A stretch of DNA of 64,000 nucleotides from Paeniroseomonas aquatica (GTDB lineage: Bacteria > Pseudomonadota > Alphaproteobacteria > Acetobacterales > Acetobacteraceae): positions 1 to 64,000 of the forward strand of contig NZ_JAUFPN010000204.1 in NCBI RefSeq assembly GCF_030409335.1, in the 5' to 3' direction. The position numbers and the translations under genes are program-made. Positions 55,959 to 59,042 of this stretch are shown here, in pieces. The notes beneath the pieces were generated by a model, which was not told the origin of the DNA, made no database searches, and was given only the letters and a program-made list of their open reading frames with translations. Position 1 is the first letter of the stretch. Each line of letters opens with the position of its first letter.

Positions 55959-56165
55959 TCAGCCATGCGCCATCCGGCCGCGCTCGGCCGAGGCCCAGCC
56001 GTGGTTGTGCACCAGCCCGTCGTCGAAGCCGGGCTCCTCCGGATGCGCGCCCATGGCCCGGGCGACCAGCCCGCCCTGGTCCCCGGCGGGGGCGAAGGTG
56101 GTCGGCGCCTGGCGCGCCCAGCCATGCGAATGCACCAGGCCATCGTCGTAGTTGTCGTGCGACAT
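55959..56165 (-). CDS. Small protein with two DDGLVHxHGWA repeats
   Basis: 68 residues, family not recognised. A 12-residue unit occurs twice: YDDGLVHSHGWA at 6-17 and FDDGLVHNHGWA at 47-58. The two copies differ at most third codon positions (GAT/GAC, GGC/GGG, CAT/CAC, GCG/GCC) while the residues are kept, which argues for real coding under selection. His and Asp in each unit could bind metal. AGGAGG lies 7 bases before the ATG. It starts 27 bases after isocitrate lyase on the same strand, so it is probably co-expressed during growth on acetate-type carbon. Confidence 0.8.
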   Translation of the reverse strand: MSHDNYDDGLVHSHGWARQAPTTFAPAGDQGGLVARAMGAHPEEPGFDDGLVHNHGWASAERGRMAHG

Positions 56166-56192
56166 GGAAGCCTCCTGTCTTCGGGTGGGGGT

Positions 56193-57503
56193 TCAGTGTG
56201 CGGCGGCGAATTGCGCCGCCTCGGTGCTGGTCGCCAGCGCGGTGGTGCTGGAATGCCCGCCCGCGGCGGCGGTGGCGATGGCGTCGAAATAGCCGACACC
56301 CACTTCGCGCTGGTGCCGGACGGCGGTGAAGCCCTCGGCCTCGGCGGCGAATTCGGCCTGCTGCAACTCGCTGTAGGCGCCCATGCCGCGCTCGGCATAG
56401 CCGCGGGCCAGCCTGAACATGCTGAGGTTCAGGCTGTGGAAGCCGGCGAGCGTGACGAACTGGAATTTGTAGCCCATGGCGCCCAGCTCGCGCTGGAATT
56501 TCGTCGCCGCCTCGATCCCCATCTTGCGCTGCCAGTTGAAGCTGGGAGAGCAGTTGTAGGCCAGCATCTTGCCGGGGAAGTCGCGGTGGATCGCCTCGGC
56601 GAAGGCCCGGGCATCGTCGAGGTCGGGGTCGGAGGTCTCCCACCACAGCAGGTCGGCATAGGGCGCATAGGCCAGGCTGCGGGCGATGGCGTATTGCTTG
56701 CCGCAGCCGGGGCGGATGCGGTGGAAGCCCTCCGGCGTGCGGTCGTTGCCGATGAAGGGGCGGTCGCGCTCGTCGACGTCGCTGGTGAGGAGCTGCGCCG
56801 ATTCGGCATCCGTCCGGCAGAGCAGCACGGTCGGCACGCCCTCGACGTCGGCGGCGAGGCGGGCGGCGTTCAGGGTGCGGATATGCTGGCTGATCGGCAC
56901 CAGCACCTTGCCGCCGAGATGGCCGCACTTCTTCTCGGAGGCCAGCTGGTCCTCGAAGTGGACGCCGGCGGCGCCGGCATCGATCATCGCCCGCATCAGC
57001 TCATAGGCGTTGAGCGCGCCGCCGAAGCCGGCCTCCGCGTCCGCCACGATCGGCGCCATGTAATGCGTCCGGTCCTGGCCGCCTTCCTGCACCGCGATCT
57101 GGTCGGCCCGGCGCAGCGCGTTGTTAATGCGGCGGACCACCTCGGGGACGCTGTCGACTGGATAGAGCGACTGGTCCGGGTACATGGTGCCGGCGGTATT
57201 GGCATCCGCCGCGACCTGCCAGCCACTGAGGTAGATGGCCTGGAGCCCGGCCTTGACCTGCTGCAGCGCCTGCATGCCGGTCAGCGCGCCGAGCGTCGTC
57301 ACCTGCGGCTCGGTCTTCAGCAGCTGCCACAGCCGCCGGGCGCCGCGGTCGGCCAGGGTATGGGCGACGCGGAAGCTGCCGGCGAGGCGGGCGACATCCT
57401 CGGGCGTGTAGTCCCGGCGGATGCCGTCGAAGCGGCCGGGCTCGGGCCGGTCGCCGCCATGGCTGCCATCGGGGGCGTGAATGGGGGTAGGGGTCGGTCG
57501 CAT
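56193..57503 (-). CDS. aceA: Isocitrate lyase
   Basis: 436 residues. KKCGH at 191-195 is the catalytic Cys motif. Nearby [15 protein letters not shown] and the later NCSPSFNWQ complete the signature. It splits isocitrate into glyoxylate and succinate, the first step of the glyoxylate shunt. No malate synthase is in the window. GGAGGA lies 5 bases before the ATG. It is divergent from the ScfR/RamB-type regulator, with a control region of 138 bases between. Confidence 0.97.
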
Positions 57504-57641
57504 CGCAATCCTCCAGGCCTGTCGGCTGGAGTGAAGATTTCACTCGGCTGGGTGTTTTGCATCCGCTTTCCGGCCGAGGCTCTGGCAAACATGTCGATGG
57601 TTTCGCTATGATGCCCTCGATTCAGTAAATGGAGTAAAGTC
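57504..57641. promoter_or_regulatory. aceA-regulator divergent control region
   Basis: 138 bases. AGTGAA-GAT-TTCACT (57530-57544) is a perfect inverted repeat 26 bases from the aceA ATG. TTTGC at 57556-57560 faces GCAAA at 57585-57589; the TTTGCA half resembles the RamB box of Corynebacterium (CTTTGCAAA). TATGAT at 57607-57612 may be the -10 of the regulator gene. AGTAAA occurs twice, 9 bases apart (57624 and 57633), beside the GGAG site of the regulator. These look like binding sites, but which protein uses which is not known. Confidence 0.6.
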
Positions 57642-59042
57642 ATGGCCCGGGCGCTGATCGGCCGGACGGTGCGCCGGCTCCGGCAGGAGAAGGGGCTGGC
57701 GCAGCAGGCGCTGGCCGCCCGCCTCGGCATCTCCGCCAGCTACCTGAACCTGATCGAGCACGACCAGCGCGCCGTCACCGCCACCCTGCTGATCAAGCTG
57801 ACCGAGGCGCTCGAGGTCGACATCGCCGCGCTCTCGGGCCTGCGGGAGAAGGCGTTGGAGACCGGGCTGCGGGAGGTGCTCTCCGACCCGCTGCTCGGCC
57901 TCGACCAGGTGCCGGAGGAGGAGATCGCCACCATCGCCGGCAGCGCGCCGAACGCCGGCCGCGCCATGCTGGCGCTGTACCGCGCCTGGCGGGTGGCGCG
58001 GGAGGACAGTGGCGGCATCGCCCTGCCGACCGGCCGGCGCATCCTGCTGCCGACCGAGGAAGCCCGCGACTTCTTCCACGACCGCGCCAACCACTTCCCT
58101 GTGCTGGAGGCCAAGGCCGAGGCGATCGCCGCCGAGATGCGGGTGATGGCGCCCTCCGAGATGAACCACGCCGTCGCGCAGCGCCTGCGGGACAAGCATG
58201 GGCTGGTGGTCGCCGTCACCGCCCTGGCGCATGCGCTGCGCCGCTACGACCCGGCCGGGCGGCGGCTCGAGCTCTCCGAGGCGCTGCCGCGGGAGAGCCG
58301 CGGCTTCCACCTCGCCTTCCAGCTCATGCTGCTGGAGGCGGGGGAGGCGGTGCAGGCGGCGCTCGGCGGCTTCGAGCCGAGCAGCCCGGAGGCCGCGGCG
58401 CTCATCCGCATCGGGCTGCTGAACTACGCCGCCGGGGCGCTGCTGATGCCCTACCTGCCCTTCGCCACCGCCGCCCGCGACCTGCGGCACGACGTGGAGG
58501 CGATGGCCGCCCGCTTCGGGGTGAGCTTCGAGCAGGCCTGCCACCGGCTGACTACGCTGCAGCGCGACGGCGCCCGCGGCGTGCCCTTCTTCTTCCTGCG
58601 GGTCGACCCCGCCGGCAACGTCGACAAGCGCTTCAGCGCCGCCGGCTTCCCCTTCGCCCGCTTCGGCGGCTCCTGCCCGAAGTGGATCGTCCACCACGGC
58701 TTCGCCACGCCGGGGACGGTGCAGGTGCAGCTGGCACAGCTGCCGGATGGCGGGACCTTCCTCTGCTTCGCCCGCACCGTGCAGGGGGCGCCGACCCGCT
58801 GGGGGGAGCCGGCGGCGGTGCATGTGGTGGCGATGGGCTGCGACCTCAGCCGGGCGCCGGAGGTGATCTATGGCGACGGGCTGGACCTGGAGCGGGCGAT
58901 GGTCGGCATCGGCCTGTCCTGCCGCCTCTGCGACCGGATGGACTGCCGCAGCCGCGCCTTCCCGCCGCTCGAGCACCGGCTCGCGCTGGACCCCATGGTG
59001 ACCAGCGCCTCGCCCTACCAATTCAAGCCGGCGAAACGCTGA
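57642..59042 (+). CDS. ScfR/RamB-type XRE regulator of short-chain fatty-acid metabolism
   Basis: 466 residues. An XRE helix-turn-helix at about 8-62 (KGLAQQALAARLGISASYLNLIE, longer than needed as a motif) is followed by an IrrE/ImmA-like central domain. The C-terminal DUF2083-type region has CRLCDRMDCRSRAFPPL. Members control isocitrate lyase and propionate genes in actinobacteria and alphaproteobacteria. Divergence from aceA supports that role here, probably sensing acyl-CoA or a related metabolite. GGAG sits 7 bases before the ATG. Confidence 0.9.
   Translation: MARALIGRTVRRLRQEKGLAQQALAARLGISASYLNLIEHDQRAVTATLLIKLTEALEVDIAALSGLREKALETGLREVLSDPLLGLDQVPEEEIATIAGSAPNAGRAMLALYRAWRVAREDSGGIALPTGRRILLPTEEARDFFHDRANHFPVLEAKAEAIAAEMRVMAPSEMNHAVAQRLRDKHGLVVAVTALAHALRRYDPAGRRLELSEALPRESRGFHLAFQLMLLEAGEAVQAALGGFEPSSPEAAALIRIGLLNYAAGALLMPYLPFATAARDLRHDVEAMAARFGVSFEQACHRLTTLQRDGARGVPFFFLRVDPAGNVDKRFSAAGFPFARFGGSCPKWIVHHGFATPGTVQVQLAQLPDGGTFLCFARTVQGAPTRWGEPAAVHVVAMGCDLSRAPEVIYGDGLDLERAMVGIGLSCRLCDRMDCRSRAFPPLEHRLALDPMVTSASPYQFKPAKR

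Follow-up and report, generated by a model that had tools for sequence, protein, structure and literature searches.

A short protein motif appears to be a portable accessory of the isocitrate lyase step: comparison among relatives showed it in cis as a tail of AceA and in trans as a small protein encoded on the same strand behind aceA. The motif was also shown, in the genomes compared, to be kept in small ORFs that occupied the aceA position with no catalytic core found (cored loci), mostly in genomes with a distantly related isocitrate lyase. Judged from these sequences and by analogy, there is close to an even chance that the motif is a docking or regulatory element serving the isocitrate lyase step and organised like the CP12/GapB tail.

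The window, that is, the whole 64,000-nucleotide stretch of Paeniroseomonas aquatica DNA analysed, contained a minus-strand ORF at 55959..56165 (68 codons) whose translation, MSHDNYDDGLVHSHGWARQAPTTFAPAGDQGGLVARAMGAHPEEPGFDDGLVHNHGWASAERGRMAHG, is a 68-residue protein with two motif copies. Copy 1, YDDGLVHSHGWA, spans residues 6-17 (56115..56150, minus strand) and copy 2, FDDGLVHNHGWA, residues 47-58 (55992..56027, minus strand). Both 12-residue units read [YF]DDGLVHxHGWA and had 10 of 12 residues in common, and silent differences were present in five of the 10 codons for these shared residues, confirming the observation of an earlier note on this DNA that the units are kept in protein and have diverged at silent sites. 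An AGGAGG ribosome binding site (56171..56176, minus strand) was positioned 5 nt ahead of the ATG, and the gap from the aceA stop to the small ORF was 27 bp; the same note had described a strong ribosome site and a position 27 bases after aceA, and both held. This small ORF is real. When the whole genome containing the window was searched with the motif profile (E ≤ 0.001), two matches were obtained, both inside the small ORF. No confident fold was predicted for the window peptide alone (pLDDT 60, pTM 0.21), and the small protein is probably disordered. The small ORF and aceA shared a reading frame interrupted by one TGA (window 55962-57503), an arrangement that may stem from the recent splitting of a fused gene or be accidental. 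Stop-codon read-through was considered as a rule and rejected: the gap modulo 3 was 0, 1 and 2 in 12, 21 and 31 of 64 named loci, respectively, a spread indicating that read-through is not a general rule.

The aceA gene of the window (56193..57503, minus strand) encodes a 436-residue isocitrate lyase without a motif tail; its product, P0003, scored 728 bits against a cut-off of 562 for NCBIfam NF011645. It is separated by an intergenic region (57504..57641, no strand assigned) from a divergent ScfR-type (RamB-like) regulator at 57642..59042 on the plus strand. The regulator scored 208 bits with PF09856 (cut-off 24) and carried an HTH, as expected of the ScfR family, and its score of 404.9 with the NCBIfam RamB equivalog NF038139 was below the cut-off of 700. 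Sequence words common in this intergenic region were counted in relatives only, where AATAATT was found in 78/128 aceA loci and 14/21 cored loci. The adjacency of aceA and an ScfR-type regulator resembles the ScfR/RamB-regulated glyoxylate-cycle genes in the excerpt of PMC10370305; the difference is that a small motif protein is not mentioned in that excerpt. AceA (window 57441-57503) and the second isocitrate lyase described below had an [AS]P[DE]G element in common at the N-terminus (seen in L240, L241, L250, L251, L252 and L263). An element of this kind was present in most AceA proteins (75/98) and in all six second-lyase copies read, and it preceded the stretch matched by both lyase family models.

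The small protein gave nothing above cut-off or significant in Pfam, NCBIfam, PHROGs or the sequences of solved structures, and no match among 72,556 plasmid records. In a sample of 200 genomes of the same family, a single-sequence search (E ≤ 0.1) gave matches, many of them weak, in 131, and the 19-position motif profile built from relatives (E ≤ 0.001) found the motif in 104. In the order sample, 117 of 299 genomes were matched by a 68-position profile (E ≤ 0.01), and the matches listed belonged to the same family. In a class sample of 385 genomes, that profile matched the window's own genome and gave one weak match besides, a 1157-residue frame (E 4.5e-4). The motif family was thus found almost only in Acetobacteraceae, counting sample genomes that carry Roseomonadaceae or Acidocellaceae names at NCBI. 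A scan of named genomes confirmed 116 stretches, of which 80 were kept; most of these were by title Acetobacteraceae genera or MAGs, and the remainder were less exactly named Alphaproteobacteria, Rhodospirillales or Proteobacteria MAGs. The small protein also occurs in the environmental relatives Belnapia rosea and Siccirubricoccus deserti. In 64 of the 80 named loci the relative lay 3' of aceA in the same orientation, at a gap of 13-220 bp. Two motif copies were recognised by pattern in 60 of these 64 genes, and a purine-rich ribosome site preceded 58 of them. The DDGLVH string was absent from the open-licence papers searched, and no account of such an isocitrate lyase motif, tail or small protein appeared there in the titles and abstract starts of the matches listed. 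The note's interpretation was supported in part: a new small-repeat-protein family with a link to isocitrate lyase was supported, and the motif that the note had proposed to look for in Acetobacteraceae was present in 104/200 same-family genomes, whereas isocitrate lyase binding, inhibition or chaperoning and metal binding would be candidate roles.

The consensus from 109 copies at aceA loci was [HYF]-D-[DE]-G-L-V-H-x-H-x-W-A. All 109 had D, G and the first H; 108 had the second H, 106 had W and 106 had A, and L and V were each present in 102, with the conservation partly built in where the collecting pattern demanded D, G, H/Q and W/Y/F. The reading frame, whose conservation the note had made a test of its proposal, was kept, and dN/dS summed over 158 non-independent pairs was 0.11 within the motif vs 0.40 outside; judged by this ratio, the motif is under purifying selection. 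The two histidines would also fit a metal-binding element, HxH plus acidic residues, whose role would be to buffer the divalent metal needed by isocitrate lyase or deliver it to the enzyme. We regard this as quite unlikely: the near-invariance of both histidines is consistent with it, even if H or Q at the first was required by the pattern, and His/Asp-rich linkers were seen by eye in many fused tails; however, the conservation of Leu, Val, Trp, Ala and Gly suggests a docking surface, and the linkers of separate peptides, also judged by eye, were mostly not His-rich.

To place the motif relative to the enzyme, 98 aceA loci from the 200-genome sample were sorted. The first sorting gave 33 strict tails, 40 motif ORFs within 600 bp downstream and 25 loci with neither. 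After the tails were read, eight more loci joined the fused class, one for a frameshifted tail and seven for tails of variant sequence (YDHGIDHAHDWA-like, and DDDGQVHNHEWA), so that the final sorting was 41 fused tails, 39 separate ORFs and 18 neither; these counts may be blurred by partial assemblies. The tie to isocitrate lyase was therefore stronger than the earlier note had guessed, since the motif forms the AceA C-terminus in many relatives (41/98 loci). The search found 100 aceA genomes; three (G065, G191 and G194) lay outside the 98 loci, aceA running off the contig, and G193 gave two. The fused motif started past the ...STE..QF of AceA, where the two best-matching solved isocitrate lyases stop or nearly stop aligning, and the linker from the AceA end to the tail motif was 9 to 26 residues in 39 tails. 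For six of the 18 loci with neither form, a motif gene was present elsewhere in the genome (G043, G076, G081, G091, G143 and G146); in G146 and G076 it lay about 9 and 15 kb from aceA, respectively, on the same contig. On an AceA tree made by a quick method from 97 of the 98 rows (the short row G120 was left out), the fused/separate/neither label changed 13 times, and the starred branches forced at least five changes for the fused and at least four for the separate state, gains and losses being counted alike. The tree showed repeated switching between the tail and separate forms. In two genomes aceA was present twice, as full copies or with a C-terminal fragment as the second, and every one of these had a fused tail (L180 and L181 in G193; L173 and L247 in G026).

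When aceA alone was searched for, 14 motif genomes appeared to be free of isocitrate lyase; this was rejected when 12 of the 14 proved to have a PRK06498-type enzyme. This second isocitrate lyase (NF005074/PRK06498 type) is about 30% identical to AceA, and an example at L250:2972-4327 scored 830 against an NCBIfam cut-off of 446. The two remaining aceA-less motif genomes had neither lyase and were 66% (G145) and 89% (G178) complete. By search, an isocitrate lyase of either kind was present in 100 of the 104 motif genomes, and the motif was missing from 77 of the 81 genomes with neither. The four motif genomes without a full lyase were the incomplete G145 and G178, and G020 and G058, which had aceA fragments; counting these fragments as aceA raises the figures to 102/104 and 77/79, the stricter count being 100/104 and 77/81. 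G020 (L234) and G058 (L228) had, in that order, the last 57 and 142 aceA residues with the tail. Their C-terminal pieces abutted a truncated ScfR on the other strand and the middle of the divergent pair was missing, an arrangement that is either a deletion or a misassembly. Conversely, 19 lyase-bearing genomes lacked the motif, 12 of them with aceA and seven with the second lyase only. In G049, G080 and G128 the second lyase occupied the position of aceA and diverged from the regulator. The motif ORF of G102 and that of G159 ended 58 and 65 bp, respectively, before the second-lyase match on the same strand. G199 had both lyases and a fused tail, and G099, of the same genus, had the second lyase and a cored gene. 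The aceA linkage that the note had put forward therefore stood in part: relatives follow aceA in 64/80 named loci, but the motif persists without aceA in genomes that have the distantly related isocitrate lyase.

At 21 loci, some of them duplicates, aceA was absent and a motif ORF lay at its place, divergent from the same regulator. Several of these cored ORFs had AceA-like starts (e.g., MRPSTAPTRSPEGM.. or MRSTAVYAPDGM..), and several finished like fused AceA tails (..HxWA[VM]SSP[DE]R). An AceA N-terminal HMM, built from the 75 of 98 N-termini with the recognisable element, scored 10 of the 21 cored ORFs at 16.5-29.5 bits, compared with 11.3 for the best shuffle and 5.3 for the best separate peptide. 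With this HMM the remaining 11 (the L097/L107/L109/L112 type, L030/L099/L236 and L239) were indistinct from controls, and their origin rests on position because the AceA-like start was not significant there. L109 comes from Acidocella aquatica, where the motif gene took the aceA position and the stretch read held no aceA. On the regulator tree, made by a quick method and containing long branches, the 17 cored rows, seven of them without a significant AceA-like start, fell into five groups, and the starred branches forced at least four state changes, gains or losses. Fused relatives were neighbours of cored rows twice (L227 beside G096/G153/G196; L217/L232 beside G026). From these sequences we infer that the catalytic core was lost several times, because regain of the core seems less likely. 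At L236 (G031) and L099, a protein of at least 236 residues occupied the aceA position; it carried four copies of the motif, of which the last was truncated where the contig ended.

Another possibility is that motif ORFs are functionless relics of an aceA tail. Decayed or single copies at some loci (L053, L216 and L221) and the 19 isocitrate lyase genomes without the motif would be in keeping with decay. However, the purifying selection on the motif, the ribosome sites in 58/64 genes, the repeated retention of the motif without the core and its near absence where there is no isocitrate lyase all argue against relics, and we consider this very improbable. A tentative reading, falling below an even chance, is that a regulatory tail has outlived its enzyme: the motif would have arisen on isocitrate lyase in Acetobacteraceae and be needed for the glyoxylate shunt whichever isocitrate lyase is used, the core being lost repeatedly and the tail kept. 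On such a course, aceA would have been given up with the distantly related lyase doing the step, and the tail would have been kept as a free protein at the old place, in several cases carrying aceA's own start. If true, bacteria that lack AceK would have in the motif a controller of their isocitrate branch point that can be exchanged between cis and trans.

In Escherichia coli the isocitrate branch point is controlled by AceK. AceK was found in none of 40 searched motif genomes chosen from the 104, with the E. coli control positive, and in one of 14 control genomes; its absence from motif genomes does not by itself show that the motif controls the branch point. These data bear on an alternative in which the target of the motif is a different isocitrate-node enzyme, namely isocitrate dehydrogenase, malate synthase or aconitase, which it would either recruit to the lyase or, in the case of isocitrate dehydrogenase, restrain in AceK's stead. 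A partner common to both lyases would explain how the motif survived exchange of the lyase, and the 0/40 result for AceK fits the second form of this alternative. However, the lack of AceK was not special to motif genomes (1/14 controls), and malate synthase had neither the motif nor the APDG element at its start in 10 of 10 genomes; it was accordingly rejected as a carrier of either (0/10). Action on another node enzyme appears rather unlikely.

The divergent regulator offers a further candidate partner. An ScfR orthologue (at least 50% identity) was present in 101 of the 104 motif genomes, and the three exceptions, G145, G178 and G182, were 66%, 89% and 89% complete, respectively. The motif might bind this ScfR-type regulator, so that a product of the aceA promoter reports its output back in a feedback loop. 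The divergent ScfR arrangement was retained at cored loci, and in the excerpted part of PMC10370305 the glyoxylate cycle of Paracoccus is under the control of the ScfR protein RamB, which also binds CoA esters, all consistent with feedback. However, an ScfR would be expected beside aceA anyway, 23 genomes had ScfR and no motif, and in G102 and G159 the motif gene adjoins the second isocitrate lyase, away from ScfR; we consider the feedback loop unlikely. ScfR columns that recurred with motif loss came mostly from two divergent clades and were rejected as candidates.

We consider docking and tuning most likely because the arrangement matches CP12/GapB, with AcnSP as a precedent. On the docking reading, the short linear motif [HYF]D[DE]GLVHxHxWA, displayed twice by the small protein, would dock on isocitrate lyase or on some fixed isocitrate-node partner, and the docked motif might tune activity, assembly or localisation. 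The tail form would act autonomously, and the free form, produced along with the enzyme, would be a bivalent partner. A point against docking is that the motif would have to serve two distantly related lyases. No convincing recurrent column or patch that changed with motif loss was found in AceA, and a tethered AceA-peptide model (pLDDT 52, pTM 0.46) was too poor to read.

According to the portion of PMC4436894 consulted, one segment is common to CP12, a small disordered protein, and to the C-terminal extension of plant GapB. The motif described here likewise occurs free and as a C-terminal extension of an enzyme, in trans and in cis, so that it would work like this system rather than belong to it. 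The enzyme is a different one, and no CP12 family was among the Pfam matches of the window protein: the CP12 Pfam model did not recognise it, and its sole Pfam match, PF21392, was below cut-off. Membership of this COQ9_N family was rejected, the score being 18.3 bits against a curated cut-off of 27 over a short, chance-like match (residues 10-20). No CP12-type cysteine pair was found; the window protein has no cysteine and therefore no disulfide switch, and 24 aligned peptides had at most two, scattered. CP12 also binds and inhibits GAPDH/PRK, whereas an effect of the motif on enzyme activity is putative. AcnSP, as presented in the available part of PMC7336809, is a small protein that resembles a piece of aconitase and alters the kinetics of this cyanobacterial enzyme. 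The likeness is that of a small protein to a terminal segment of an isocitrate-node enzyme, again within that part of PMC7336809. The same text attributes AcnSP to a partial duplication onto a Synechocystis plasmid; by contrast, the motif is family-wide, repeated and, in many genomes, part of the enzyme.

The motif follows isocitrate lyase as a tail, a small protein or the leftover of a lost enzyme, and it could make branch-point control in AceK-less bacteria directly testable. It is a bacterial addition to the known enzyme tails with free small-protein counterparts. By its example, 'hypothetical' ORFs of 50-100 residues that follow metabolic genes may be modules of this sort. Among the small proteins with a single motif, many ended with a second conserved element, approximately P-S-[ST]-x-V/A-x-x-D[DE] (e.g., RTPSTVHQDEH), which was seen in L155, L156, L165, L223, L224, L237, L240 and L241 and may replace the second motif copy. 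A subfamily starting with MT[YF]AA.. was found near a PhaR-type polyhydroxybutyrate regulator at L218, with L226, L229 and L235 placed in it by clustering; at L235 a Dyp-type peroxidase also adjoined the gene.
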